A DNA stretch of 64,000 bases from Enterococcus hulanensis. GTDB lineage: Bacteria > Bacillota > Bacilli > Lactobacillales > Enterococcaceae. Of the stretch, positions 13,868-40,815 are shown piece after piece (the stretch's first letter is position 1; every line of letters begins with the position of its first letter). The position numbers were made by a program, and so were the translations under genes. Below the pieces are notes generated by a model. That model ran no database searches and was not told where the DNA came from. It was given only the letters and a program-made list of their open reading frames with translations. Where the stretch lies: the NCBI RefSeq assembly GCF_005405485.1, contig NZ_BJED01000014.1, positions 3,392 through 67,391 on the forward strand, in the 5' to 3' direction.

Positions 13868-13997
13868 CCTATTCCTCCTTTTGTTATAAAAAAACTACTT
13901 ATATTATTACTATAACATAGGAAAGTAAAAGAACTCAAAGCATACACCTTGCGAACTCTTCAAAAAGTAACAAAATAAATTATTCAAAATAACCAGT

Positions 13998-14012
13998 AGT
14001 AAACGCTTTCAA
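13998..14012 (-). promoter_or_regulatory. cre box (CcpA site) over the RNA promoter
   Basis: The minus strand reads TTGAAAGCGTTTACT, a full match to WTGNAANCGNWNNCW. It overlaps the -35 position of the promoter at 14007–14035, so carbon catabolite repression of that transcript is expected. Confidence 0.75.
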
Positions 14013-14035
14013 AAAATGACTAGTTGTGCTATATT
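14007..14035 (+). promoter_or_regulatory. Promoter of the candidate structured RNA
   Basis: An extended -10, TGC-TATATT (14027–14035), has a weak -35 (TTTCAA, 14007–14012). Transcription would begin near 14042. Confidence 0.6.
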
Positions 14036-14041
14036 ATAGAT

Positions 14042-14416
14042 ACAAGGAAGGAGGAACTTAGATCATTCGAAGGATTTCTCGATAAGGAAGTAGAAAAAAG
14101 TAAACAATAAAATTGTTAGTAATACAAGATTCACCTAAAAGTTGTCAAGAGTGTATGTGTGAAGTATTTCTTTATAAATAGTGAATGCGTATCAGAGGTT
14201 GAGTAGTACATCAAACACACAAGTAAAAAGATACGTAAGTAAGAAAAGTTTCTTAAAACTGAATAAAAGTGAAAACGTAGTAAAAACAAATATTTATGTT
14301 TATAGTCAAGAAATTCATGTAATACTTTGCATGTATCATATAAAGTAATATAAAATTCGAATGAACTAATCCTTCCGATATTCTAAGAGCCAGGCAGTCG
14401 AGAGCCTGGCTTTTTT
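14042..14416 (+). ncRNA. Candidate ~375-nt structured non-coding RNA
   Basis: No ORF of note lies between the promoter (14007–14035) and a strong terminator (14387–14416). The two ends can pair over a long distance. GGAAGGA (14046–14052) complements TCCTTCC (14370–14376), and TCATTCGAA (14063–14071) complements TTCGAATGA (14356–14364), in nested order, as in closed RNAs such as 6S or SRP RNA. I do not recognise it as tmRNA, RNase P, 6S or SRP RNA. A long regulatory leader is less likely because the terminator precedes the next gene by ~195 bp. Confidence 0.6.
14387..14416 (+). terminator. Terminator of the candidate RNA
   Basis: GCCAGGC–AGTCGAGA–GCCTGGC is followed by TTTTTT. Confidence 0.85.
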
Positions 14417-14489
14417 GTGTTTAAGTTTGCAATCCATTGAAACAACAACGATTTGAAGCGGTTTTGTAAAAATTGATTGCCAAAAGTTT

Positions 14490-14553
14490 GCACTGAATTG
14501 CACTGTTTTGAACATCAATTTTAGCCAAGTTTTAGCCACTTTCTAAGACCTAA
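14490..14553 (+). repeat. Two short tandem doublets upstream of the 108-aa ORF
   Basis: TGCACTGAATTGCACTG contains TGCACTG twice (10 bp apart), and TTTTAGCCAAGTTTTAGCCA contains TTTTAGCCA twice (11 bp apart). Spacing near one helical turn suggests protein binding sites, such as integrase-arm or regulator sites. Their function is not established. Confidence 0.4.
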
Positions 14554-14611
14554 AAACGAGGCTTACGCCCTATGAAATCACCGAAAATAAAACATAGGGA
14601 GTGGCTTAAAT

Positions 14612-14938
14612 ATGGGATTCAATTACGATCAAAAAAGAAAAGATTATCTCGTTGGCGAGATTTCACATGAAGAATTTTATTTAGAATTTGCAGACGCGAT
14701 CAATTTCGATGACCTTGCATCGTTAGTGCCAGCGGATGCTTGTAAATCGCGTGATCCACATCTAAATGATGTTCCATTAAGATTGTGGGATTATCGGTTC
14801 TCTGAGGTACGGTTCTTACTATCACGAGCAATCAACCAAGGGCGTCTCATCAAACGATTAAACGGACTATCAGCAGCGGAATCTGCTTGCTTGTTGAAAG
14901 ACGTTGCTAGAGAATGTATGACTGCTGTATTAATTTAA
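14612..14938 (+). CDS. Small hypothetical protein of mobile-element type
   Basis: 108 aa with AGGGAG upstream of ATG 14612. There is no signal peptide or membrane helix. It opens with MGFNYDQKRKDYLVGEISHEEFY-like helical sequence, followed by a distinctive SRDPHLNDVPLRLWDYRF and a helical C-terminus. From memory, similar small proteins with DPH-ND-PL--WD occur in conjugative plasmids and integrative elements of Firmicutes, but I cannot name a function. It stands alone, flanked by gene-free DNA and preceded by doublet repeats, which fits a remnant of an integrated element. Confidence 0.6.
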   Translation: MGFNYDQKRKDYLVGEISHEEFYLEFADAINFDDLASLVPADACKSRDPHLNDVPLRLWDYRFSEVRFLLSRAINQGRLIKRLNGLSAAESACLLKDVARECMTAVLI

Positions 14939-15180
14939 AAAGCATTCCGGTATCATATATCGGGCGGTATGCCAATCAGACATCTAATTCAATAGAAGCA
15001 TGGCTTTTCCTATTGAATCTATATAAATAATCCGAGCTGCATCATTTTATTGATTTATTTGTCATACACTAAAAATTATCTTACTTACTTAAGAAAAGTT
15101 TCATAAACTAACTTATGTGACTAATAAGCTAATTCATGAAACAAGAAAATAGTAAATTTGTTGATTCATATTTTGGTCTA
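14939..15180. other. Gene-free stretch with two hairpins
   Basis: ATTCAATAG…CTATTGAAT (about 14988–15018) lies after the small ORF and may end its transcript. A second dyad, GTTTCAT (15098–15104) with ATGAAAC (15136–15142), contains inner pairing ACTTAT/ATAAGC. No gene is seen. Confidence 0.45.
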
Positions 15181-15211
15181 AAGAAAAAAGACGACTATAT
15201 TTTAGTCGCCT
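15181..15211 (-). terminator. Terminator of the LevR-controlled PTS operon
   Basis: The minus-strand hairpin GGCGACT–AAAATAT–AGTCGTC is followed by TTTTTTCTT, ~100 bp after the dehydrogenase stop. Confidence 0.8.
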
Positions 15212-15313
15212 TACAGTTATTACTTCTATTTTTTCAGAAAGCTGAATAACTACTTATGCAAAATAATTACTCAACATTTTACAGATTTTTAAAAAGAGCT
15301 TTATAATACACTC

Positions 15314-16471
15314 TTAAATAACATTATAATATTCTAAAACTTGATTAAACATATCTGATCCTTTTTGAAGTCCAGAAAATCTTTCGATTGCGGCCTCAAT
15401 ACCATTTTCTTTGATGTACTCTTGCAATTCTACTGCTTCTTCATCATCAGAATTATCGTACTTAAAGGCATACGCAGCACCATACAACAAATGATCATTT
15501 GATAGATTATACTCAGCAGCAATATATGCAGGTCCCATTATTCTATCATCTGATGATAATTTGCGAATAGGTTGACGTGCAACTCTGGCGATTGGATCAT
15601 TGATTCCTTCTTGATTATAATCGTCATATCGTTTTAGAATCATTTCACTGATATAATTATTCATTTCATCATTAGAAAAGCCAAATTTCTTTTCCAAGCC
15701 CGCTGCAGATTCAATTACTGCTTTTTTCACTATTTTCTGAATATCTTCATCACGAAGTGCTTCATCAACCATTTTGTATCCTTTTGTATGTCCGATATAA
15801 CTAGTTATTGCAAGCCAACAGTTCACTAAATAGATTTTTCTTTTAAGTACTGCTTCTAAATTATCTACATACTCAGCACCTGAAATAGGTTTACTATCCG
15901 GATCATCCAATTTTTGACGTTCGATCGCAAGTTCATGAGAGTCACTAACTGCTGTGCCTTCTCTCCCCTTATAAATTCCACCAAATACGAACCTATCAAC
16001 ACCTGTATTAGGATACGAACCAATCTCTTTTAACTGATCCAAAGTAATAATACTTGTATCAGTCATAAGATTTACTAACGTATCTGTTCCCATGATGGCA
16101 TTTTCGCACGCCATTACAAGTACTCTGCTTCGTCCCTCATCTAATCGTCTCTTTAAGCCTTTAGCTAAAATGGGGGCAACACTCACTAAATTGCTTTTCA
16201 TAACAGACGTCATAATAATATCTACTTGCGTAATAGCTTCAAGTATCACCTCTTGATTTTTCAAAAGTGATAATGCGGAAACATTATCAATAATCTTTTC
16301 TTCATAATTATGGTTAGTTAGAAACAAACTATAACGGTTGTTTTCGTTTATTTCTTCGATCACTTCATTAGAAACATCTGCAAAGATAATTTCATACCCA
16401 TCCTCATGAAGAAGATCTCCAAGAAAACCCTGACCAATTTTTCCGGCTCCAAAGATTAGTGCTTTTTTCAT
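15314..16471 (-). CDS. Mannitol-1-phosphate 5-dehydrogenase family (polyol-phosphate dehydrogenase)
   Basis: 385 aa from ATG 16471 (MKKALIFGAGKIGQGFLG), with AAGGTGG upstream; a GTG 15 bp earlier is possible but overlaps that ribosome site. The N-terminal Rossmann motif GAGKIGQGF and the C-terminal mannitol dehydrogenase fold with the family's K-LVNC/GHTKGY catalytic region are visible. The family oxidises hexitol- or pentitol-phosphates to ketose-phosphates with NAD+. Genuine MtlD normally sits with a mannitol PTS. Here it is last in an operon with a mannose-type PTS and a 3-epimerase, so allitol/altritol-6-phosphate or ribitol-phosphate are better guesses than mannitol. Confidence 0.85.
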   Translation of the reverse strand: MKKALIFGAGKIGQGFLGDLLHEDGYEIIFADVSNEVIEEINENNRYSLFLTNHNYEEKIIDNVSALSLLKNQEVILEAITQVDIIMTSVMKSNLVSVAPILAKGLKRRLDEGRSRVLVMACENAIMGTDTLVNLMTDTSIITLDQLKEIGSYPNTGVDRFVFGGIYKGREGTAVSDSHELAIERQKLDDPDSKPISGAEYVDNLEAVLKRKIYLVNCWLAITSYIGHTKGYKMVDEALRDEDIQKIVKKAVIESAAGLEKKFGFSNDEMNNYISEMILKRYDDYNQEGINDPIARVARQPIRKLSSDDRIMGPAYIAAEYNLSNDHLLYGAAYAFKYDNSDDEEAVELQEYIKENGIEAAIERFSGLQKGSDMFNQVLEYYNVI

Positions 16472-16519: not shown

Positions 16520-17191
16520 TTAACCCAGTACATGCATAAAATCATCGTAATATTTTCCAAAAGTACTTGGATCTTTAAGAATTTTTGAGGCACTACCTAC
16601 TACAAACCCATTGGCACCGCTTTCAAACATTTTTTTACTATTCTCTGGTGTTGTATTACCGTCAACTAAAAGATCTATGTCAGGATTATATGAATCTAGT
16701 AATTGTCTAATTCTCTTTAATTTATCGAAAGAATTAGGAACCAATGTCTGTCCTGCGAATCCTGGATTTACTGTCATTAAGGTCACGTAATCTAATTGAT
16801 CAACACACTCTTCTAAATAAGAAATAGGAGTTCCTGGACTAATTACCAGCCCAGCTCTACAGCCCATATCCTTTATCGTTTGGAGTAATCGATAGGATTG
16901 ATTCGTTGTTTCTGGATGAAAACTAATCCAATCATCTTTTCTGGTATTAAACATAGAAATGTATTTCTCAGGTTCGTTAACCATCAAGTGAAGATCTATC
17001 GGAATTTGGGTCATCTGCTTTAAATCGTTAAAAACAGATGTACCTAACATGATATTTGGAACAAAATGACCATCCATTACATCAAAATGAATGACAGAGA
17101 GATTATACTTATCAAATTGTTTCATGTACTCTTTATATTCATAAATTTTTGGAACCATTATTGATGGAGATATAAATCTGCTTAATCCCAT
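16520..17191 (-). CDS. Ribulose-/allulose-phosphate 3-epimerase family protein
   Basis: 223 aa TIM-barrel of the Rpe/AlsE family. Metal and catalytic motifs are visible: ISPSIM at the start, VIHFDVMDGHFVPNI (His and Asp), DLHLMVNEP, MTVNPGFAGQT, and LLVDGNTTPEN followed by GANGFVVGSA. Rpe converts ribulose-5-P to xylulose-5-P, while AlsE converts D-allulose-6-P to fructose-6-P. The divergence from housekeeping Rpe (DWISFHPETT, DGNTTPEN rather than DGGI) and the PTS/MtlD context favour the AlsE type. It lies between PTS IID (128 bp away) and the dehydrogenase. Confidence 0.85.
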   Translation of the reverse strand: MGLSRFISPSIMVPKIYEYKEYMKQFDKYNLSVIHFDVMDGHFVPNIMLGTSVFNDLKQMTQIPIDLHLMVNEPEKYISMFNTRKDDWISFHPETTNQSYRLLQTIKDMGCRAGLVISPGTPISYLEECVDQLDYVTLMTVNPGFAGQTLVPNSFDKLKRIRQLLDSYNPDIDLLVDGNTTPENSKKMFESGANGFVVGSASKILKDPSTFGKYYDDFMHVLG

Positions 17192-19896: not shown

Positions 19897-19954
19897 CTTT
19901 TTCGCACACATCTTTTTCCAGCTACAGCAAGCGTTTCCAAATATTCGATCCACG

Positions 19955-31062: not shown

Positions 31063-31998
31063 TTAACTATTCAACAATTCATACCCAACTTCTTCATCGC
31101 AAATCAGGACGTTGATCAATTTCCCATTGATTGCTCCCAAGGTTGCCGTCGCTCGCTTCTTCGAGCAGACCGCCCCAATACTGATGGGCGCTAATCGTAG
31201 AGAATCCAGCCCGCTGGAAATCGGAAATTGATTGCGGTATTGAATTTCTTTTCCGTTGATATCAAAAGCACGTCCGATCATCGTTCCCACCGCACCTTCA
31301 GCGACTAGATCATTCAGATCGCGATTGTCTAAGATACCTGAGGAGACCAACGTGTTGCGGGTCGTCTCAATATTTCCGATCCCGCTAAAGGCCACATCGA
31401 TTTTCCGGCCGAGGGAAATATTCAAATCAATTTGCGGCTGCGCCAATAATTCTTCCTGTAATTTCCGCGAATTAACAAAGGCCGGAGCGTTGAAAAATTC
31501 GTGGCGGCCATCTAATTTCTGCGCCAAGCGGAAAACCAGCTCGTTGCCATCCATGACAGTCCGATTGGGACCTAAACTACCGGTTAATTGGACCACATGA
31601 ACATTCTTCAAATCATGAGCCGGGAAGTTTTTCACCATTTTTTCGACGGTCACTCCCCATGAGATCCCCAGCAGCCGATCATTCGCCAATACACCGCTGA
31701 TATAATCTGCCGAAGCCTTCCCCACGTTGTTTAAATCATAGTCATATTCGCCTAAGCCCTTGACCACAATGACTTCTAATAAATCAAACTTTTCCTTTAA
31801 CTGCATCATCAGGGTGTTGTTCCGTTCGAAAGGCGCTTCGATCGAGATTTTAACAATTTGTTTTTCCCGTGCTTCTTCCAGCATTCTGGAAATGGATGGA
31901 CGTGATACCCCAATTATTTTCGCAATATCATTTTGGTTCATCCTATCTAAATAATACAGTTCTGCTACTTTTAATAATGTAGAAATATCATTCGCCAT
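31063..31998 (-). CDS. SorC/DeoR-type sugar-binding regulator
   Basis: 311 aa. The N-terminal HTH (DRMNQNDIAKIIGVSRPSISRMLEEAREK, ~17–45) is followed by the SorC sugar-phosphate-binding domain (ISWGVTVEKMVKNFP, VVQLTGSLGPN, GAVGTMIGRAFDINGK). These regulators sense phosphorylated intermediates of the pathway they control. It is last in an operon with a HAD phosphatase, PTS IIB/IIA, dehydrogenase and IIC, and is the obvious regulator for both arms of the divergent cluster. Confidence 0.92.
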   Translation of the reverse strand: MANDISTLLKVAELYYLDRMNQNDIAKIIGVSRPSISRMLEEAREKQIVKISIEAPFERNNTLMMQLKEKFDLLEVIVVKGLGEYDYDLNNVGKASADYISGVLANDRLLGISWGVTVEKMVKNFPAHDLKNVHVVQLTGSLGPNRTVMDGNELVFRLAQKLDGRHEFFNAPAFVNSRKLQEELLAQPQIDLNISLGRKIDVAFSGIGNIETTRNTLVSSGILDNRDLNDLVAEGAVGTMIGRAFDINGKEIQYRNQFPISSGLDSLRLAPISIGAVCSKKRATATLGAINGKLINVLICDEEVGYELLNS

Positions 31999-32038
31999 TT
32001 TTTCCTCCTAGTTCAAATACCGGTCGAGCATCCTCTAA

Positions 32039-32845
32039 TCATGTAATAAAATCGTCGATCATTTCCAACGCTTTTACTACGCCGTCTTCATCATTTGTTG
32101 GACAATGCCATTTAGCTGCCTGCTTTAATTCAGGTGTAGCATTTCCCATCGCGATCGATTGCGAAAATCTTTCGAACATCGAGAGATCATTTCCATTATC
32201 ACCAACCACAAACACCTGATCATCAGAAATACCGTAATAATTCGCCAGCTCAGCTAAAGCATTTCCTTTACTAACATTTTTCTTGGCAAATTCGATCATG
32301 GTGGGATAGCCCTGAACACATGAATAGTCCTGTGAAAAACGTTGTTCTACCATACTTTTATTCTGTTTAATTATATCGGGGTTATCACAAATAAGCAATT
32401 TGGAATATTTATCATTTGAATCAAGTTCGTTCATTGCACAAACCTTTAAATGATTATTCGTCAAAAAGCAAAATTCCAATGTTCCAACATTGATCATTGG
32501 GAAGGTAGTGGTCGCCCCCTGATCATTCACCGCAATACAGGATAAGCCATTCTCACGACAAAAAATAGTCAGCTCTCGATAATCTGCAAAATCAAGCAGC
32601 TCTTCAGCTAGTTTCTGTCCATGGCCGTTTTGCACCACCGCACCATTGGCGATGACATGATAATCATCGGCAATCCCAGCCGTTTTCGCATGAGGCAAGA
32701 CGCCTGACATTGGGCGTCCCGAACAAAAGGCAAATCGATATGTATCGCAAGCGGCTCTTCGTTGAATCGCCTCAGCTACTTTTTCAGTTAATTTTCCGGT
32801 AGAATCTAGTGCCGTGCCATCAAGATCTAAAGCAATTAAATTCAT
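32039..32845 (-). CDS. HAD-superfamily (Cof-type) phosphatase
   Basis: 268 aa. DLDGTALD at residues 6–13 with the catalytic Asp, the second motif FCSGRP, and VVGDNGNDLSMFE near the end with SIAMGNA. Type IIB cap. Cof-type enzymes dephosphorylate sugar phosphates or flavin nucleotides. In this operon it may relieve accumulation of a polyol- or sugar-phosphate. Confidence 0.9.
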   Translation of the reverse strand: MNLIALDLDGTALDSTGKLTEKVAEAIQRRAACDTYRFAFCSGRPMSGVLPHAKTAGIADDYHVIANGAVVQNGHGQKLAEELLDFADYRELTIFCRENGLSCIAVNDQGATTTFPMINVGTLEFCFLTNNHLKVCAMNELDSNDKYSKLLICDNPDIIKQNKSMVEQRFSQDYSCVQGYPTMIEFAKKNVSKGNALAELANYYGISDDQVFVVGDNGNDLSMFERFSQSIAMGNATPELKQAAKWHCPTNDEDGVVKALEMIDDFIT

Positions 32846-32899
32846 CAGGATTTCCTTTCAAAAAAAAGACTGGACATTCTTATCCAGCCTTTCAAAATA

Positions 32900-33205
32900 T
32901 TATTTTCCCATCTCTTTTAAGGCTTTCAACGCTGCATCTAAAAATGTTTCTTCATCTAATCCAGTCAGCAGCCCAACAGAATTTATTTGCGGAATTCCTT
33001 CTGCGTCTGCTGGATCAATCGGACTAGTGAAAGCGACTAAATCAATATCGCCATTTGCGACTGCCCCTTTGACCATTCCAGGATTGACCTCTTGGATCTC
33101 TACTTCATACCCGTGTTCTTCTAACAATTCTATGATCCGTTCGCCAACCATAGCCGAACTAACTGTACCTGAGCCGCATACAGATAAAACTTTTATTTCT
33201 GTCAT
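32900..33205 (-). CDS. PTS galactitol-type component IIB
   Basis: 101 aa. The phosphorylated Cys lies in VLSVCGSGTVSSAMV (residue ~10), the GatB/lactose-like P-loop. Then a DIDLVAFTSPI segment. It hands phosphate from IIA to the substrate in IIC; its partners are in the same operon. Confidence 0.92.
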   Translation of the reverse strand: MTEIKVLSVCGSGTVSSAMVGERIIELLEEHGYEVEIQEVNPGMVKGAVANGDIDLVAFTSPIDPADAEGIPQINSVGLLTGLDEETFLDAALKALKEMGK

Positions 33206-33283
33206 CGCTATCCCTCCTATTTTAAATAATCTACTGTGTGCTTTTTTTCATTATAGTATAACGCTTACAGCAAATGTTGCTTT

Positions 33284-33748
33284 TTAGAATTTAATTTTGC
33301 TGGTCACCGCTAAAACTTCCTCTGGTGTCTTAGCTGAGCCGATCGCATCCAAGTCTTCTCTGTTTTTAAAAACACTCATTAATTGCCGCAGCAAAGCCAG
33401 CTGCTTCTTCGGATGTTCCATCGCCAGCGGGAAAAAGATATTGCTTTGCAGCTTGATATCGGGACTTCCCATCATAGAAACCTCGATTGGCTCCTTTGTA
33501 ACAACGACACCCATCCCTGGTCGCAAAACATGTTCAGGATCAGTATGAGGAATCGCGATATTATGACCATCCGCCGCTAAGCCAGTCGGAAATACTTTTT
33601 CTCTGGCAATCACTGCATCTACATAGGATGGTTTGACGATCTGCGCCTTTTCAAACTCAGCACCGATCAACTGAATAACTTCTTCAAAGGAATGAATATC
33701 CTGATCGAGTAAAATACAATTTCTTTCAACGAGATTTTTTTCTTCCAT
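33284..33748 (-). CDS. PTS fructose/galactitol-type component IIA
   Basis: 154 aa of the EIIA-Ntr/Fru/Gat fold. The active His is in GHNIAIPHTDPEHV, followed by FFPLAMEHPKKQLALLRQLM. Receives phosphate from HPr for the IIB/IIC pair. 14 bp from the dehydrogenase gene. Confidence 0.93.
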   Translation of the reverse strand: MEEKNLVERNCILLDQDIHSFEEVIQLIGAEFEKAQIVKPSYVDAVIAREKVFPTGLAADGHNIAIPHTDPEHVLRPGMGVVVTKEPIEVSMMGSPDIKLQSNIFFPLAMEHPKKQLALLRQLMSVFKNREDLDAIGSAKTPEEVLAVTSKIKF

Positions 33749-33762
33749 CGCTGCACCTCACC

Positions 33763-34803
33763 TTATTCTTTGTTCGGCTGTAAAACAACTTTGATTTCAT
33801 CGCCAGCCATCACTTGTTCAATCGCTTCTTCCCATTTATCTAATGGATAGATTTTGGTAATCAAACGCTCCGCGTCGATCTTGCCTTGCCTCATCAACTC
33901 TAAAGTCAAATGCCAAGTAGAAGGTTTTTGCGACCGTGAGCCAATGACATTCATTTCTCTTTGAACGATCGAATTCATGTCTAGTTCGTTTAAACTTTTG
34001 GCAAAGACACCCATTTGTACCAGCGTTCCTTTTTGTTTTAAATAATCAAAGATTTTTTTGATCGCCGGCGCCGCACCTGAGCATTCAAAGCAATAATCTG
34101 CGCCTTTTCCGTTGGTAAATTCTTTGATGAGCGCTGTTGCATCTTCTTTCAGCGAATCAATTACCATATCTGCACCTAACTCTTTAGCCGTTTTCAGACG
34201 CTCCGCATCTTGAGTGATCCCTACGACGATTACTTTGGCCTCGACACTTTTTAATACCTGGCTTAAGCATAACCCAATCGGACCAGGCCCGACAATCACT
34301 GCCACATCATTTTTTTCGACTTGCGCTTTTTCCAGACTGGCATGAACACCGCAGGCAATCGGTTCCGTGATTGACGCAGCTAACAGACTGATCTTATCAT
34401 CTAAAATATGAACACTTTCTTCGCGAGTTAGTACATACTCCGCAAAACTGCCATTTACTTGGCTGCCTAAGCCTTTGCGATTCAAGCAAAGGTTGTACTC
34501 TTTGTTATGGCAAGATTCGCACTCGCCGCAAGTAGCAAAGGTCGTTTCGCTGGTGACTAATTGACCTTCTTGTACTTCTGTTACCTTTTCTCCCACCGCT
34601 TCCACAATTCCGGAAAATTCGTGACCCAATACTAACGGAGTCTTCAAGCGGTCATATTCTCCTTTGAAGCCATGAATATCTGTTCCGCAGATGCCGGTAT
34701 AGATAACTTTGATCAAAACTTCTTTGTCTTTTGGAACAGGTTTTTCAATCTCCAGCAACTTCATTTTGTTGTAGCCAGGTTCTGTTTTGACTAGCGCCTT
34801 CAT
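33763..34803 (-). CDS. Zinc-dependent polyol(-phosphate) dehydrogenase, MDR family
   Basis: 346 aa. The catalytic zinc ligands are in GICGTDIHG and LGHEFSG; the structural zinc lobe is CGECESCHNKEYNLC (four Cys). The NAD-binding motif is VGPGPIGLCLSQ. It overlaps IIC by 4 bp. It is similar in layout to sorbitol/threonine dehydrogenases and to the D-arabitol-phosphate dehydrogenase described in Enterococcus avium, and the PTS context means its substrate is probably phosphorylated. A galactitol-1-phosphate dehydrogenase role is the alternative. Confidence 0.87.
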   Translation of the reverse strand: MKALVKTEPGYNKMKLLEIEKPVPKDKEVLIKVIYTGICGTDIHGFKGEYDRLKTPLVLGHEFSGIVEAVGEKVTEVQEGQLVTSETTFATCGECESCHNKEYNLCLNRKGLGSQVNGSFAEYVLTREESVHILDDKISLLAASITEPIACGVHASLEKAQVEKNDVAVIVGPGPIGLCLSQVLKSVEAKVIVVGITQDAERLKTAKELGADMVIDSLKEDATALIKEFTNGKGADYCFECSGAAPAIKKIFDYLKQKGTLVQMGVFAKSLNELDMNSIVQREMNVIGSRSQKPSTWHLTLELMRQGKIDAERLITKIYPLDKWEEAIEQVMAGDEIKVVLQPNKE

Positions 34804-36203
34804 GCAACCACCTTTTCTTTGGGACCATCATTTTTTTCACCTTCCAAGAAACTCCAAACAGCTTGTTTGTTTTTCTTGAATAAGACATACATCGCTAAGT
34901 AAAGCACGACCACGATACCCATCCATAAGAAGTTCCCCGACAAGAATGCTAAGAAAATCAATGCCATTACCGGATTGTATAAAATCCCGAAACTAGTAAT
35001 CATCATGGCACCCTCAGGAATATTCACACCAACCTGAGCGGCAACTTCTGTAAAGTAAGGAGCAGTTAAAGTACAAACATATAATCCGATCGTAAACCAG
35101 ATAATACCTGAGATCACGCCTTTGAAGATGTTCCCTTTTGAAATACAAATAATCATTTCTACCATATATGGCAAGGCGATCAAGTCAACCAGCGGCAAGG
35201 TTTCGTTGCCTGGCAAGATCATCGCCAACAATACCATGATCGGAATCAAAATCAGACCTGTCATCAACGTTGCCGGTTCGCCATAGCCAACCGCATCATT
35301 CACTGAAAGCATCCATTCACGATTCTTTCCGCTGCCTTTTGCCGTTTTCTTACTAGCGTTCGTCAAGCTGGTAAATGCTGAAGCAAAGATACTCGCAACC
35401 CGCGGGAAAATCGCCATAACTGCTGATACGGCAAGTCCCATTGTCAGAACACTGCCCCAGCCGTCTAATGTAGTTAACGTATTCAAATTCCCCATGATCC
35501 CAATCAGCAAACCAAGAAACAGTCCTAAAGTGACCGGCTCTCCTAAGAAGCCTAATTTCTTCTTCAAGGTTGCCGGGTCCCAATTGATCTTGCCTGCACC
35601 TAATTTGTCTAAAATCCAATTCATTATGATCGCATAAGGTACCGAGGTGACGTGGTGGGGTGCCGTCAAGGTCGTTCCTGGTAGATTGTAGTAATTCGCC
35701 CAGCGTTTGGCGATCACTTCTCCCAGCAGCATCACGTATAAGTTCTGAACGATCATACAAGCCATCGCTAATGCCATGTTGTCTGTGATCAGATAAATCA
35801 TTGACCCCCAGACCATGAAGGAATAGTTATTCCACATGTCACTCGGCATAAATACATCGGTCCATTTAATTAAGAATAATGCCACTTGCAGGACCAATCC
35901 TACTACTAAGAAAACCACACCTACTTGAGTAGAGTAAGCAATAACGGAAGTCGCCTGCCAACCTGTATCAAATACTGGCAATTTGACACCTGTTTGCTCA
36001 ACCATATTATTGATAACTGGTGTAACGATTGGAACAAATGAATTAACGATCAAATTGAATCCCGTTAATCCGATCCCAGCATTCAAAGCAGACTGGAAGG
36101 CCTTTTTAGGTTTGACCTTTAAAAATAAGGCCACGATGAACAACATCACTGGTACGACGACGGCAGCACCAAATGAACTTAAGATATTTTGTAACAACTC
36201 CAC
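34800..36203 (-). CDS. PTS galactitol-type component IIC
   Basis: 467 aa from GTG 36203 (reading MELLQNILSSFG), preceded by AAAGGAGG; a longer frame from further upstream would lack a ribosome site. It is a polytopic membrane protein with the GatC family features FLKVKPKKAFQSALNAGIGLTGFN, WNNYSFMVWGSMIYL and NDAVGYGEPATLMTGLI. First gene of the operon IIC–dehydrogenase–IIA–IIB–HAD–SorC. Confidence 0.93.
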   Translation of the reverse strand: MELLQNILSSFGAAVVVPVMLFIVALFLKVKPKKAFQSALNAGIGLTGFNLIVNSFVPIVTPVINNMVEQTGVKLPVFDTGWQATSVIAYSTQVGVVFLVVGLVLQVALFLIKWTDVFMPSDMWNNYSFMVWGSMIYLITDNMALAMACMIVQNLYVMLLGEVIAKRWANYYNLPGTTLTAPHHVTSVPYAIIMNWILDKLGAGKINWDPATLKKKLGFLGEPVTLGLFLGLLIGIMGNLNTLTTLDGWGSVLTMGLAVSAVMAIFPRVASIFASAFTSLTNASKKTAKGSGKNREWMLSVNDAVGYGEPATLMTGLILIPIMVLLAMILPGNETLPLVDLIALPYMVEMIICISKGNIFKGVISGIIWFTIGLYVCTLTAPYFTEVAAQVGVNIPEGAMMITSFGILYNPVMALIFLAFLSGNFLWMGIVVVLYLAMYVLFKKNKQAVWSFLEGEKNDGPKEKVVA

Positions 36204-36254
36204 AATAATTCCTCCTTTTATTGAACTTTTTTTCACTTGTTAGAACTTATGAAA

Positions 36255-36283
36255 AGTATCGCATGGGTTTTTCGTTCTGTCAA
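36255..36283 (-). promoter_or_regulatory. Promoter of the Gat-type PTS operon
   Basis: Minus strand: TTGACA (36278–36283), 17-bp spacer, GATACT (36255–36260) with extended TG. Confidence 0.7.
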
Positions 36284-36292
36284 CACTTTTAT

Positions 36293-36306
36293 TGAAAACG
36301 ATTGCA
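36293..36306. promoter_or_regulatory. cre-like box in the divergent promoter region
   Basis: TGAAAACGATTGCA matches the CcpA consensus except one weak position. It lies 10 bp upstream of the minus-strand -35 and 57 bp upstream of the plus-strand -35, so glucose control of both arms is likely. Confidence 0.6.
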
Positions 36307-36362
36307 CTGGACTTATATCTATCGTTATTACTATTAAAGGATGAAAAACGACAAAAGATATA

Positions 36363-36391
36363 TTGACATTTGTTCTTTATGATGAAATAAT
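36363..36391 (+). promoter_or_regulatory. Promoter of the aldolase–transketolase operon
   Basis: TTGACA (36363–36368), 17-bp spacer, AATAAT (36386–36391); GGAGG follows at 36407–36411. Confidence 0.75.
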
Positions 36392-36418
36392 GTAAAAAAC
36401 AACATTGGAGGTATCGTT

Positions 36419-37072
36419 ATGCTTGAACAATTGAAAGAGACCGTCTGCAAAGACAATAAAGCGCTTCCTAAAAATGGATTGGTTTTATGGACGAGCGGAA
36501 ATGTCAGTGCAAAAGATCCAGAAACAGAATATGTGGTCATCAAACCCAGCGGAATTCATTTTGATGATTTGACTCCGGACAACATGATCGTTGTAGATTT
36601 GGCAGGTAACGTAATCGAAGGAGAACTGACTCCATCTGTCGATACGGAATCGCATCTATATGTATACAATCACTGTCCAGACGTTTTAGGGATTACTCAC
36701 ACACACTCTCCATACGCTACTGCCTTTTCAATCGCCGGAGAATCATTACCTATTTATACAACAACTTCTGCTGCTGTTTTCGGCAGAGAGATTCCTTTAT
36801 CTGAAGTTGCGGCAGTTGGCGAAAAAGCGATTGGTGCTGAAATCGTACGCTGTTACCAAGAAACGAACTGTCCGGCAATTTTGTTAAAAAATCACGGCGT
36901 CTTTACAGTAGGAAAATCCGCTACAAACTCTCTGAAAAACGCGGTCATTCTTGAAGAAACCGCTCAAAGTGTCTATTATGCCAGAACATTGAATGCGAAG
37001 CTTGAACCGTTGGAATCCTCATATACTTCTGAGGTATATGATTTTTATCAAAATAATTATGGTCAAAAATAA
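36419..37072 (+). CDS. Class II aldolase/L-ribulose-5-phosphate 4-epimerase family
   Basis: 217 aa with GGAGG upstream. Zinc-binding motifs are ITHTHSPYATAF (two His) and the later LLKNHGVFT; the substrate-phosphate region WTSGNVSAKD and IKPSGIHFDDL is typical of AraD/FucA proteins. SVDTESHLYVYN near the zinc site resembles AraD-type 4-epimerases, which convert L-ribulose-5-P to D-xylulose-5-P. With a transketolase behind it, epimerase is the better guess than aldolase. Confidence 0.85.
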   Translation: MLEQLKETVCKDNKALPKNGLVLWTSGNVSAKDPETEYVVIKPSGIHFDDLTPDNMIVVDLAGNVIEGELTPSVDTESHLYVYNHCPDVLGITHTHSPYATAFSIAGESLPIYTTTSAAVFGREIPLSEVAAVGEKAIGAEIVRCYQETNCPAILLKNHGVFTVGKSATNSLKNAVILEETAQSVYYARTLNAKLEPLESSYTSEVYDFYQNNYGQK

Positions 37073-37101
37073 AGACAATAAATCGAAAAAGGAGTTTTAT
37101 C

Positions 37102-38007
37102 ATGGCAAATAATTATACAATCGCTGATGTAGAAAAAGCTGCAACGAACATTCGCAAACACGTACTAAAACTAACGATCGAAAGAAACGGCTGCTACCTG
37201 TCACAGGCTTGTTCTTCCGCAGAGCTTTTCGCGACCCTCTACTTGCGGGTACTAAATTTAAGCGAAAGCAAAGCACCTCGGTTACCGGAAAAATTCCCAG
37301 GAACCCCTTCAAAAGACAATATGGATTATATTCAAGGAGCAGCATACCACGGATCATTAAAGGCACCCTATGATCGCTTCTTCGTCTCCCCGGCACACTA
37401 TGCGGCACCTGTTTATGCGGCATTGATCGAAGCGAACCGCTTAGATGAAAAAGCCTTAGAAATGTTCAATCGCGACGGCTACTCAATGGAAATGATCGGA
37501 GCAAATCATACACCCGGATTTGAAAACGCTGCCGGCACATTGGACCAAGCGATCAGCGTCGCTGGCGGAACAGCCCATGCAAGAAAACTGCGTGGCGAAG
37601 AAGGTCGCGTGTTTGTCATGATGTCCGACGGCGAGATGCAAGAAGGACAATTATGGGAAGCGCTCCAAGCCGCCGTTTTTTACGAACTAGATAATCTGGT
37701 GCTGCTAGTCGATGTCAATGGACAGCAGGTCGAAGGTGAAACGAAAAAAGTTATGAACGTCGAACCATTAGAAAGTCGCTTCACCGCATTCGGTGCAAAA
37801 GCCGTTTCAGTAGACGGACACGACATTCAAGCCATCGAAGAAGCTGCTAAACAGGGAGAAAAAAATAAACCATTAGTCATTCTTTGCTACACCGATCCAA
37901 CTCAAGGAATCCCCTACTTAAACGAAAGAAGACCGATTCTGCATTTTGTTCGTTTAAAACAAGGGGAAGAAATCGAAAAATATACTAAATTCTACAATGA
38001 AATGTAA
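37102..38007 (+). CDS. Transketolase, N-terminal (TPP-binding) subunit
   Basis: 301 aa. It contains the thiamine-diphosphate/Mg site MSDGEMQEGQLWEAL…VDVNGQQVEGET (Asp and Asn ligands) and the GANHTPGFENAAGTLDQ substrate region. It is only the first half of a transketolase (usual single chain ~660 aa); the other half is the next gene, 24 bp on. Two-subunit transketolases like this occur in archaea and in accessory carbohydrate operons. Confidence 0.93.
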   Translation: MANNYTIADVEKAATNIRKHVLKLTIERNGCYLSQACSSAELFATLYLRVLNLSESKAPRLPEKFPGTPSKDNMDYIQGAAYHGSLKAPYDRFFVSPAHYAAPVYAALIEANRLDEKALEMFNRDGYSMEMIGANHTPGFENAAGTLDQAISVAGGTAHARKLRGEEGRVFVMMSDGEMQEGQLWEALQAAVFYELDNLVLLVDVNGQQVEGETKKVMNVEPLESRFTAFGAKAVSVDGHDIQAIEEAAKQGEKNKPLVILCYTDPTQGIPYLNERRPILHFVRLKQGEEIEKYTKFYNEM

Positions 38008-38031
38008 TCGAGACTAGGAAGGAGTTTTATT

Positions 38032-39021
38032 ATGAAAATTGAATCGGATGTTCATTCAAAAAATATGATTAAATTTGCTCAGGAAAATGAGGATGTTTTA
38101 GTTTTATCTGCCGATCTCGGCACTTCTTGCGAGGTAAAGGAATTTCCAAAAGTCTTCCCTGAAAAATACTTATCCATGGGAATAGCGGAACAAAATATGC
38201 TAAGCTGGGCAGCCGGTTTAGCACGGGAAGGCTTCCGACCATTTTTGCACACTTTCGCTGTTTTTCTATATCGCAGACCGTTAGACCAATTAGAAATGTC
38301 GATCGCCTACCCTAATCTGCCGGTTTCACTTTTAGGTTTCGTCCCTGGGATCACTACTCCTGGCGGGGTTACCCATCAATCGATTGAAGATGTAGGTATT
38401 TTGCGAACGATTCCCAACATGACGATTTTCGATTGCGGGGATGCGACAGATGTGGAATCAGCATTGGAGATCTGCAAGGAAGTAAATGGACCGATCTATG
38501 TCCGGATGCTTCGTGGACAAATGCCGCGGCTCTTTTCTCCTGACAAACCAACCGAGTTTAACAAAGGCCGAGTAATTTCTGAAGGCGATGATGTCGCACT
38601 ATTTTCCAGCAGCATCTGTACCGAAGAAGCGATGCGGGCAACTCAATGGTTAGAAAAACAAGGCGTTTCTGTCCAACACGTTCATATCACGACCCTCAAG
38701 CCATTTACTGATCCATTAGTAGTGGAATCTATTCAAAAAGTAAAACACGGAGTAGTGACAATGGAAAACCACGTAACGATCGGCGGCCTAGGCACCGCTG
38801 TCGGAGAAGTGATGTTAGAGAATCAGCTCCATAAGCAATTGATTAAAGTCGGAATCAACGACGAATGGACCCATGGTGCTTCAAAACCTTATTTACTGAA
38901 AAAATACGGGTTAGATGCTGCTTCGTTAATCAAAGCTGTTGAAAAAATCTTAGACAAAGACCTCGGCTTCAAAGAAGAGGAATTAGAAGATATCCGTTTA
39001 GAAGATTACGATCGCGTATAA
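38032..39021 (+). CDS. Transketolase, C-terminal (pyrimidine-binding) subunit
   Basis: 329 aa. The Glu that activates thiamine is in SMGIAEQNMLSWAAGLA; PGITTPGGVTHQSIEDVGILR and the C-terminal HITTLKPFTDP fold follow. It forms the active enzyme with the preceding subunit, moving two-carbon units between pentose phosphates and glyceraldehyde-3-P. The end carries ~25 extra acidic residues (EEELEDIRLEDY). Confidence 0.93.
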   Translation: MKIESDVHSKNMIKFAQENEDVLVLSADLGTSCEVKEFPKVFPEKYLSMGIAEQNMLSWAAGLAREGFRPFLHTFAVFLYRRPLDQLEMSIAYPNLPVSLLGFVPGITTPGGVTHQSIEDVGILRTIPNMTIFDCGDATDVESALEICKEVNGPIYVRMLRGQMPRLFSPDKPTEFNKGRVISEGDDVALFSSSICTEEAMRATQWLEKQGVSVQHVHITTLKPFTDPLVVESIQKVKHGVVTMENHVTIGGLGTAVGEVMLENQLHKQLIKVGINDEWTHGASKPYLLKKYGLDAASLIKAVEKILDKDLGFKEEELEDIRLEDYDRV

Positions 39022-39025
39022 AACA

Positions 39026-39065
39026 AAAAGTGATCCTGAGAAAAAATCTCAGGATCATTTTTTTA
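39026..39065. terminator. Terminator between convergent transketolase and dehydrogenase genes
   Basis: TGATCCTGAG–AAAAAAT–CTCAGGATCA then T run; it reaches the stop codon of the minus-strand gene. Confidence 0.85.
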
Positions 39066-40103
39066 AATGATAAATTCACTCTCGCCAGTCTTTACATACT
39101 CTCTCACCTTTCGCGCTAACAAGAAAGGCGAATTTGGGATCGCATCTACAGTATCTCCCGCAATATGCGAAGTAATAACTAAATTGTCTAAATCCAGCAA
39201 CGGATCATCCGAATGCATCGGCTCCTGCCACACCACATCGATTGCTGCTCCAGCGATTTTCCGTTTCTTCAACACATCAATAAAAGCCTCTTTATCAAGA
39301 ATTCCTGGTCGAGCAGTATTAATCAAATAGGCGTTAGGTTTCATCAACTCCAATAATTTCTCATCCACCAGCTTTTCTGTTTCTGGTGTCACCCGCATGT
39401 GAAGAGAAACTATATCAGCCTCGGTAAATAATTCCTCCAAAGAAACAAAACGCAGCTCAAGTCCTGAAGCCAGCACCTTCTTTTGATCAATAAACGGATC
39501 ATAAGCGATGACGTTTACCCCCAGACTGATTAGACGTTGGGCTACCATTTTCCCAATATGACCTAAACCTACCAGTCCAACCGTTTGTTCAGAAAGCGTC
39601 GTCCGATATGCGTCATTCGGAAATTTTTTAGGCCACTTGCCCTGCATCACCGCCGCATGGGATAAGGCAATATTTCTAGTCACCGTGTAGATCAAACCTA
39701 TCGTGTAGTCTGCAACCGGCTCGGCATTTCGAATGATATGAATGACTGGTATATCTTTTTCCCGCGCAGAATCAACAGCGATATGCTCCACCCCGCCGCG
39801 ACACGTACCGATCAGTTTTAATTTCTCTGCCCTTTCCAGCATTTGTCGTGTTACTGGTGCAAGATGAACGAACAAATACTCTACATCTGCGATTTCTTTC
39901 ATGATCCCCTCAGGAAGATCTACTGACTCCGGACCATGCTCTTCGATCAATTTCAAGTTTCGTTGAAATTCTTCTGGCGAATCTTCTCCGTGCCATTCTA
40001 GCATGACGATCTCTAATGGTTCAGGAAGCCCCATTGACTCAGTCGCTCTTTTCAAAGTATCTACCGCGACAAATGCATCTCCGACGACAACTACTTTACT
40101 CAT
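39063..40103 (-). CDS. D-isomer-specific 2-hydroxyacid dehydrogenase
   Basis: 346 aa. The NAD motif is VGLVGLGHIGKMVAQ; catalytic residues are Arg in TCRGGVEH, Glu in DVVWQEPMHSDDP, and His in VITSHIAGDT. Members reduce 2-keto acids or oxidise D-2-hydroxyacids (phosphoglycerate dehydrogenase-like). It follows a class II aldolase by 32 bp, so both probably handle a sugar-acid or keto-acid intermediate. No kinase accompanies them, unlike the tetronate pathways. Substrate unknown. Confidence 0.9.
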   Translation of the reverse strand: MSKVVVVGDAFVAVDTLKRATESMGLPEPLEIVMLEWHGEDSPEEFQRNLKLIEEHGPESVDLPEGIMKEIADVEYLFVHLAPVTRQMLERAEKLKLIGTCRGGVEHIAVDSAREKDIPVIHIIRNAEPVADYTIGLIYTVTRNIALSHAAVMQGKWPKKFPNDAYRTTLSEQTVGLVGLGHIGKMVAQRLISLGVNVIAYDPFIDQKKVLASGLELRFVSLEELFTEADIVSLHMRVTPETEKLVDEKLLELMKPNAYLINTARPGILDKEAFIDVLKKRKIAGAAIDVVWQEPMHSDDPLLDLDNLVITSHIAGDTVDAIPNSPFLLARKVREYVKTGESEFII

Positions 40104-40135
40104 TTCCCCACCTCTTCACTAGTATTAAGATCAGC

Positions 40136-40777
40136 CTATTGACCATAACTTGGAAATTGTTCATGTACTTTTGCCATATCTGACTGCGCTAGTACCACTG
40201 GATTACCTAACAATGACGCTCCCACATGCAGTCCAGCCAATCGTTCAATCTCACTCGCCACCGAAAAAGCCTCCTTGAGCGTCGGACCGCAAGTCAGCAA
40301 ACCATGATTTGCTAAGAAACAAGCATAGCGGTCTTCCATCGCCTCAAAAGCATATTCTGCTAATTCTTCTGTTCCAAAAGTAGCATATTTAGAGCAGCGA
40401 ACATCATCTCCGCCTGCAACCGCTATCATATAATTGGTAGCTGGCAGGTCTTTTCGGCAAGTCGCAAGGATCGTGCTAAATGTCGAATGCGCATGTACGA
40501 CAGCCCGAATCTCTTCTCCACGTTTCTGATAATTGATTAAATGCATCTGCCATTCACTCGACGGCTTACGAGTACCTTCAACAATTTCACCAGCAAGATT
40601 CAGCAAGACAATATCGTCTACCGTCATCTCAAAATAATCAATCCCGCTCGGCGTGATAGCCATCAACTGCCTTTCGGGATCATATACACTGATATTCCCG
40701 CCAGTGCCAGCCGTTAATCCTGTCGAAATCAACCTTTTGCCATATTCAACCAGCAGCGCTTTTTCTTCTTCCATCAT
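40136..40777 (-). CDS. Class II aldolase (fuculose-phosphate aldolase-like)
   Basis: 213 aa. GGNISVYDPERQLMAITPSGIDY (substrate phosphate region), zinc ligands in AVVHAHSTFSTILA and LANHGLLTCG, and ASEIERLAGLHVGA at the end. FucA-type enzymes cleave L-fuculose-1-P or related sugar phosphates to dihydroxyacetone phosphate and an aldehyde; if coupled to the 2-hydroxyacid dehydrogenase, the product aldehyde/acid differs. It is the first of two genes, behind duplicated operator-like repeats. Confidence 0.88.
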   Translation of the reverse strand: MMEEEKALLVEYGKRLISTGLTAGTGGNISVYDPERQLMAITPSGIDYFEMTVDDIVLLNLAGEIVEGTRKPSSEWQMHLINYQKRGEEIRAVVHAHSTFSTILATCRKDLPATNYMIAVAGGDDVRCSKYATFGTEELAEYAFEAMEDRYACFLANHGLLTCGPTLKEAFSVASEIERLAGLHVGASLLGNPVVLAQSDMAKVHEQFPSYGQ

Positions 40778-40815
40778 TTAGAAACAGCTCTTTTATGAAA
40801 TTTTGTTCTTTATAA

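Follow-up and report, generated by a model that had tools for sequence, protein, structure and literature searches.

A divergent gene cluster at positions 31063–39021 of a 64,000-nucleotide stretch of Enterococcus hulanensis DNA (contig NZ_BJED01000014.1; hereafter the window, meaning the whole stretch) appears to encode a SorC/DeoR-repressed, catabolite-repressed regulon that takes up a pentitol-class polyol and degrades it through a non-standard back end, a reading to which we would give a probability of about one half. Neither the substrate nor the final steps are likely to be the usual ones. The regulon probably extends to 40777, taking in two further genes (39063–40777) that an earlier sequence-only reading of this DNA had left out. 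The reading draws on the gene families and their synteny, on the loss of Asp120 from an AraD-like enzyme (AldII) and of four transketolase residues from a two-chain enzyme (TktN–TktC, or TktNC), on the alternation of AldII with RuBisCO-like proteins (RLPs) beside TktNC in other genomes, and on operator-like sites. The genes, including those of a phosphotransferase system (PTS), and a hairpin are as follows.

31063–31998, minus strand: SorC/DeoR-type repressor (SorC; PF04198, 188 bits; PDB relatives SorC 2w48 and DeoR 8r7y)
32039–32845, minus strand: HAD-IIB (Cof-type) phosphatase, a variable accessory (TIGR00099, 175 bits against a cut-off of 137)
32900–33205, minus strand: PTS IIB, SVCGSGTV subtype (PF02302, 32.5 bits against a cut-off of 23.6)
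33284–33748, minus strand: PTS IIA (EIIA_2; PF00359, 112 bits; His motif AIPHTD read from the sequence)
33763–34803, minus strand: zinc medium-chain polyol-phosphate dehydrogenase, TDH-like (PF08240 and PF00107)
34800–36203 (frame open to 36236), minus strand: PTS IIC, EIIC-GAT (PF03611, 234 bits against a cut-off of 24.2)
36419–37072, plus strand: AldII, AraD-like class II aldolase/epimerase without Asp120 (PRK06557, 277.5 bits against a cut-off of 251)
37102–38007, plus strand: TktN, thiamine diphosphate (ThDP)-binding half of a non-canonical split transketolase (Transketolase_N)
38032–39021, plus strand: TktC, pyrimidine-binding and C-terminal half (Transket_pyr and Transketolase_C)
39031–39057, listed on the minus strand: terminator-like hairpin where the TktC and D2HDH genes converge
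39063–40103, minus strand: D2HDH, D-2-hydroxyacid dehydrogenase family, probable regulon member (PF02826 and PF00389)
40136–40777, minus strand: FucA2, L-fuculose-1-phosphate/DrdA-type aldolase, probable regulon member (PRK06833, 290 bits against a cut-off of 264)

The genes, strands and order set out by the sequence-only reading stand. The open reading frames (ORFs) lie at the same positions, with IIC, dehydrogenase, IIA, IIB, HAD and SorC following one another on the minus arm and AldII, TktN and TktC on the plus arm (ORF list), and each gene has Pfam support. The PTS is of the Gat type, combining an EIIC-GAT domain (PF03611) with separate IIA (PF00359) and IIB (PF02302) proteins; together with a medium-chain dehydrogenase akin to the enzymes of Gat-PTS operons, it upholds the proposed arm for uptake and oxidation. 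For IIC the GTG at 36203, preceded by AAAGGAGG, is a likelier start than 36236. The SorC protein has both the PF04198 effector domain and an N-terminal helix-turn-helix. No counterpart of the HAD gene was found in the fetched stretches of two related loci, L072 and L077 (L numbers denote the loci compared).

The cluster is more than a chance neighbourhood, given its synteny in four relatives and the recurrence of its core in two other genera. Four other genomes of the E. avium group, those of E. raffinosus, E. malodoratus, Enterococcus sp. MJM16 and E. avium, share the gene order of 31063–39021, at 89–98% identity (74–82% for HAD). Taxon surveys with TktC (E<=1e-60 or 1e-70, the E. hulanensis genome being counted in each total) found close relatives in 6/395 genomes of the order, 4/398 of the class and 6/398 of the phylum. 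All 13 other loci were fetched (L072–L084), and the full core (SorC, IIC, dehydrogenase, IIA, IIB, AldII, TktN and TktC) is present in two of them: L072, which belongs to a different genus within the family, and L077, from another family. The five plasmid loci are a chosen sample: L033–L036 were hand-picked from the best 40 of 488 TktC records, and L054, also among those 40, was fetched through an AldII search and so leans towards AldII.

Judged by its residues, TktNC is not a standard transketolase. The counts refer to 18 aligned members (the window, 12 from Firmicutes and five plasmid loci); L082, which has a stop inside its TktC, was excluded from them and from the tree discussed below, as were the full-length transketolases of L037 and L039 from the tree. 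Four residues that we take to contact the substrate in E. coli transketolase (E. coli numbering) are replaced throughout: H26 by Tyr, H100, presumably the contact of the donor C1-OH, by Ile and D469 by Gly in 18/18 members each, and H461 by Leu in 12/18 or Val in 6/18. The ThDP motif (SDGE...VDVNG), the catalytic Glu (GIAEQ) and H473 are kept; the H66 position is Gln in four members. A conserved His in an HTPG/HSPG motif lies near the H100 position and may substitute for H100. The split-chain transketolase of Carboxydothermus hydrogenoformans (6yaj/6yak) resembles TktNC in its two chains, ThDP motif, catalytic Glu and THQ/SHQ His, but it keeps H26, H100, H461 and D469, whereas TktNC lacks the equivalents of all four. 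The other split pair in the E. hulanensis genome (L040) is also without H461 (Asp) and D469 (Asn), so these two losses are not unique to the TktNC family. The plain two-subunit transketolase that had been proposed is undermined by the absence of the four residues from every member.

By the same kind of test AldII is not a standard 4-epimerase. It shares with AraD the fold family, the zinc ligands and the C-terminal Tyr, retaining the Zn site (His95, His97, His171), the acidic residue 76 and a C-terminal YGQ. It surpasses the cut-off of PRK06557 and falls short of those of PRK08193 (197 against 257 bits) and TIGR00760 araD (181 against 389). Asp120, to which we ascribe a catalytic role in AraD, is absent from 9/9 TktNC-linked AldII copies (five of them from one species group); the two alphaproteobacterial copies, L035 and L054, have His at the position, and the others (the window, L001–L004, L072 and L077) have Ala. 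All eight unlinked AraD-like comparators keep it: E. coli (1jdi), L044, L045, L055, L056, L057, L109 and L110, the last being a second AldII-like protein in the genome of L077, within another Gat operon. Not counted were FucA-type proteins and the more distantly related class II aldolase L046, which has Asn; a solved AraD variant, 1k0w, also has Asn at position 120. The absence of Asp120 undermines the 4-epimerase assignment.

The context of TktNC was counted in 18 other loci, in stretches of 10–19 kb each. An RLP adjoins it in 11 (L033, L034, L036, L075, L078–L084), in both Firmicutes and Proteobacteria, and five of these loci have MtnA and three MtnK; mtnA and/or mtnK lie beside RLP–TktN–TktC in L075 (4473–9968), L078, L079, L033 and L034. 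AldII adjoins TktNC in 4/18 (L035, L054, L072, L077), and a Gat PTS with dehydrogenase and neither RLP nor AldII in the remaining three, which come from one genus (L073, L074, L076; IIC 53% and dehydrogenase 51–54% identical to those of the Listeria pentitol operon). In none of these stretches do RLP and AldII occur together. In a tree of TktN and TktC, the RLP-linked L075 clusters with the window, L072 and L073/L074/L076 (bootstrap 100), the AldII-linked L077 comes next outside it (bootstrap 88), and the RLP-linked L033/L034 group with the AldII-linked L035/L054 (bootstrap 99). This alternation and mixed grouping suggest that AldII and RLP are probably alternative suppliers of the same kind of ketose-phosphate, with apparent swaps on the tree.

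The characterised RLP of the DeepYkr type converts 5-(methylthio)ribulose-1-phosphate to 1-(methylthio)xylulose-5-phosphate (PMC5893883); for the RLP of L075 the best models are of the enolase type, below cut-off. Two of the nearest known systems are RLP-dependent 5-methylthioribose salvage (the methylthioadenosine (MTA)-isoprenoid shunt) and 5-deoxyribose salvage: elsewhere members of the TktNC family stand next to RLP, accompanied by mtnA and in some loci by mtnK, and may offer a route for the RLP product of which we found no description. The window cluster itself has no RLP. A bolder and quite unlikely proposal would make TktN–TktC a separate ThDP family that cleaves 1-modified (1-deoxy or 1-methylthio) xylulose-5-phosphates, providing the missing last step of RLP-dependent 5-methylthioribose/5-deoxyribose salvage and, in Enterococcus, of a deoxy-pentitol PTS in which AldII replaces RLP as ketose supplier. 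A term search did not find the word transketolase in the main texts of PMC5893883, PMC6302742 and PMC6079011, and listings of the open-licence literature yielded no description of a transketolase with RLP, or of this combination of PTS and split transketolase. Elsewhere in the E. hulanensis genome, genes for MtnK, an MtnA-like and a FucA-type protein follow one another in L101 (8863–11834, contig C5), an arrangement similar to the cluster for 5-deoxyribose salvage in PMC6079011. Another link between a pentitol PTS and MtnA-like proteins is seen in Bacillus methanolicus, whose arabitol-induced operon includes a gene annotated as methylthioribose-1-phosphate isomerase (expression table of PMC6685057).

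In the regulon as we propose it, the polyol would enter through the Gat-type PTS (IIA, IIB, IIC) as a polyol-phosphate and be oxidised by the zinc dehydrogenase to a ketose-phosphate, which AldII, with its changed active site, would turn into a D-xylulose-5-phosphate-like ketose either by epimerisation or by some other retro-aldol chemistry. TktN–TktC, the ThDP enzyme of two chains, would then cleave between C2 and C3, yielding glyceraldehyde-3-phosphate and a C2 unit that is passed on. The FucA2–D2HDH transcript, apparently under the same repressor, would serve a ketose-1-phosphate branch leading to dihydroxyacetone phosphate (DHAP) and an aldehyde. We infer the reactions and their order, the polyol substrate, the repressor targets and the role of FucA2–D2HDH from the families, residues and contexts of the genes.

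The sequence-only reading had seen here a pentitol route into the pentose-phosphate pathway. Its outline of PTS, dehydrogenase and polyol is plausible; its ordinary ending is unsupported, because AldII lacks Asp120 and TktNC lacks the four substrate residues. That one of the ordinary pentitols (D- or L-arabitol, ribitol, xylitol) should nonetheless be processed by an arabitol-phosphate dehydrogenase and then by a genuine L-ribulose-5-phosphate 4-epimerase and transketolase seems unlikely. The annotation-level families agree with such a route, as do the PRK06557 score of AldII, its zinc ligands and YGQ end, and the Listeria-like pentitol PTS genes that adjoin TktNC relatives in three loci. Against this stand the retention of Asp120 in 0/9 linked copies and 8/8 comparators, one of them Gat-linked in the same genome as L077, the loss of all four transketolase residues in 18/18 members, an arrangement unlike the E. 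avium plan, and the presence of better candidates for ordinary pentitols elsewhere in the genome.

The pentitol operons of Listeria (Axl), B. methanolicus (atlABCD) and E. avium share with the window a Gat-type PTS followed by a zinc medium-chain polyol-phosphate dehydrogenase, and those of Listeria and Ligilactobacillus salivarius also carry a transketolase gene. The window cluster differs in having a SorC repressor instead of an antiterminator or activator, divergent arms, an AraD-like enzyme without Asp120 and a non-canonical split transketolase. In the arabitol clusters of E. avium and Listeria, according to PMC6685057, an antiterminator gene lies upstream of the PTS genes; in the window there is none at that place, and the SorC gene sits at the far end of the operon. 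An operon of the former plan occurs elsewhere in the E. hulanensis genome (L045), with an antiterminator/MtlR-kind regulator (assigned by eye), IIA, IIB, IIC and a dehydrogenase that is 93.7% identical to that of the E. gilvus megaplasmid pCR1A, 65% to that of Listeria and 51% to that of the window. Adjoining it is a second Gat operon, whose IIC is 55% identical to the window IIC and which encodes a GatD-like dehydrogenase, a RhaD-like aldolase and D2HDH; the AraD of this second operon keeps Asp120. The suggestion that the window dehydrogenase resembles the E. avium D-arabitol enzyme in context and plan is therefore not supported by the arrangement, and D-arabitol as substrate on the strength of likeness to arpD was rejected as unsupported, the arabitol plan and an arabitol-type dehydrogenase both being found elsewhere in the genome. 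The L045 and L101 operons appear to be better candidates for D-arabitol/xylitol and L-arabitol/ribitol than the window cluster, which argues that the latter probably serves another substrate or is a redundant third system.

The dehydrogenase of the window is 77% identical to its counterpart in L072 and 66% to that in L077. Its best matches in the plasmid collection are dehydrogenases from Gat-PTS operons of Listeria (55%) and L. salivarius (54%), and for this reason a pentitol-class polyol stays the first guess. Galactitol was rejected, since neither galactitol model reached its cut-off (TIGR00827 for IIC, 280 against 542 bits; PRK10309 for the dehydrogenase, 144 against 550). The genome of 4.74 Mb holds 18 EIIC-GAT matches, which makes the window cluster one system among many of its kind.

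Between the divergent arms, a gap of 215 bp contains two extended -10 promoters and a box resembling a catabolite-responsive element (cre), and operator-like sites lie nearby and upstream of FucA2.

36363–36391, plus strand: promoter of the AldII–TktN–TktC operon, TTGACA-17-AATAAT with TG
36283–36255, minus strand: promoter of the IIC–dehydrogenase–IIA–IIB–HAD–SorC operon, TTGACA-17-GATACT with TG
36292–36306, plus strand: cre-like box TTGAAAACGATTGCA
36222–36235: DeoR/SorC-type operator-like site TGAACTTTTTTTCA, of the form TGAAC-N4-TTTCA, in the IIC leader
40795–40810, minus strand: DeoR/SorC-type operator-like site AAGAACAAAATTTCAT upstream of FucA2

Pattern scans alone say little about these elements: the promoter pattern occurs at 20 sites in the window against 17.7 expected, a count not above chance, and the cre pattern at four against 1.9 expected, which makes the cre match weak on its own because 12/100 shuffles reach that count. 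In the four syntenic relatives named above both promoters are conserved, making five genomes in all, and a cre-like box occupies the corresponding position, so the box and the two promoters that the sequence-only reading had placed in the gap are confirmed. The other cre-like matches in the window are at 13998–14012, 16612–16626 and 19926–19940. An Rfam scan of the window for a leader RNA gave no match at gathering scores.

Bacillus subtilis DeoR binds ATTGAACAAAATTTCAAT, the right half of which ends in TTACATATGTTCAA (PMC11229326). The site in the IIC leader is the only TGAAC-N4-TTTCA without a mismatch in the window, and a similar sequence stands at that place in the four relatives. The -35 region of the AldII promoter overlaps TTGACATTTGTTCT, which resembles the right half-operator of DeoR; its counterpart in L072 is TTGACATATGTTCT. 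At the position upstream of FucA2, E. raffinosus has TTGAACATAATTTCAA, a 15/16 match to the B. subtilis DeoR core. When SorC is aligned to DeoR, it has Thr at the position of the lysine that we take to be the Schiff-base residue binding deoxyribose-5-phosphate. Deoxyribose-5-phosphate was therefore rejected as the SorC effector, which is probably a different compound. At the other end of the operon, sorC directly adjoins opuC genes in the window and in L002; between sorC and opuC in L001, L003 and L004 (~11850–15580) lie a GntR-like regulator, an EIIC-like transporter and a glycosidase-like gene (identified by eye).

FucA2 and D2HDH probably form a second arm of the regulon, judging from the placement of D2HDH genes near Gat IIC, the make-up of the L072 and L077 operons, and the operator-like sites. 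Relatives of D2HDH (E<=1e-80) are found in 11/385 genomes at 13 places, three of them in the E. hulanensis genome. Ten of the 12 places besides the window were inspected (L049, L101–L109; those in G339 and G272 were left out), and all ten are within ~3 kb of a Gat IIC, nine with a RhaD- or FucA-type aldolase. In L077 the D2HDH gene is inside the PTS operon, as is a FucA-type aldolase gene in L072. It is unlikely that FucA2–D2HDH is instead an unrelated neighbour and that the system ends at 39021. Such an ending would accord with the separate convergent transcript behind a terminator-like hairpin, with the failure to find D2HDH in the DNA fetched around the L072 genes, and with an identity of 75–90% for the two proteins, below that of most core genes. 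However, both genes have stayed next to the cluster in each of the four named relatives, and an operator-like site precedes FucA2 in five genomes, which together with the ten Gat-associated places and the two PTS operons speaks against such an ending. With a second aldolase/dehydrogenase arm that seems co-regulated, the description of the cluster as self-contained is doubtful. Gat PTS genes accompany a rhamnulose-1-phosphate-aldolase-like protein and D2HDH in L049 (E. hulanensis, contig C11) and L102–L107, with a FucO-like reductase in all but L107; the L049 locus adjoins rha genes, and these loci are candidate PTS routes for a 6-deoxyhexitol.

Several points weigh against the pentitol-class regulon as we have drawn it. 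The window IIC is only 31–32% identical to the IICs of Listeria, E. gilvus and L. salivarius, sequence alone cannot separate pentitols from other polyols, and the genome has 18 EIIC-GAT matches. AldII lacks both the AraD Asp120 and the FucA tyrosine (Thr in the alignment) and may not epimerise at all; without equivalents of H26, H100, H461 and D469, canonical chemistry of TktNC on D-xylulose-5-phosphate is doubtful. The inner nodes of the tree near the window are weak (bootstrap 59 and 63), and the donor expected in the loci with RLP and mtnK/mtnA would be a 1-deoxy or 1-methylthio sugar, so that the donor may be one here too. D2HDH-type enzymes usually act on 2-hydroxy acids, an activity that fits a plain pentitol route poorly. 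The operator-like matches are modest: shuffling yields the observed score in 9 and 12 of 500 trials, the window has at least four further sites that agree with the DeoR core at 13/16, the best site upstream of the L072 fucA gene matches it at only 11/16, and relaxed operator scans gave no more sites than shuffles.

It is improbable, more so than an ordinary pentitol, that the PTS takes up a 1-deoxypentitol (or a 5-deoxy or 5-methylthio pentitol). Oxidation by the methyl end would then give a 1-deoxy-pentulose-5-phosphate for AldII and TktNC, and oxidation by the phosphate a 5-deoxy-pentulose-1-phosphate, which a DrdA-like FucA2 would split into DHAP and acetaldehyde. The RLP/mtnK/mtnA clusters within the TktNC clade are in line with this, the expected product being a 1-modified xylulose-5-phosphate (by the RLP reaction of PMC5893883), although the TktNC-adjacent RLPs may not share the DeepYkr activity. 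The Ile at the H100 position in 18/18 members would suit a donor without the C1-OH, yet the conserved HTPG/HSPG His may replace H100. FucA2 matches DrdA (6btd, 217 bits), but its score of 232 bits with the fuculose-phosphate aldolase 4c24 is slightly higher. In sister Gat loci D2HDH is accompanied by a RhaD-like aldolase and often FucO, enzymes of 6-deoxy-sugars, and one such locus lies beside a rha operon. Counting against the idea, we know of no PTS for deoxypentitols.

A sugar-acid route is the least probable, very unlikely indeed: the PTS would import an aldonate, the TDH-like dehydrogenase would make a 3-keto acid phosphate, AldII would decarboxylate this to a pentulose phosphate as does OtnC of the class II aldolase family, and D2HDH would act on a 2-hydroxy acid, in keeping with the top NCBIfam models of the dehydrogenase (L-threonine 3-dehydrogenase and scyllo-inosose 3-dehydrogenase, all below cut-off), with D2HDH as a frequent partner of the window IIC subclade and with the loss of Asp120, but AldII scores far lower with the OtnC model (74 bits) than with the AraD model PRK08193, the L045 arabitol-type dehydrogenase has the same top models, so these do not mark acids, and the relatives sit in polyol-type operons.

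For the proposed pentitol-class regulon, then, the labels 4-epimerase and transketolase come from family-level annotation, and residue tests mark both enzymes as non-canonical. That RLP and AldII alternate next to a single two-chain ThDP enzyme points to a common step on a ketose-phosphate, of which we found no description. If such a step exists, what becomes of the RLP product where TktNC is present could be tested directly.

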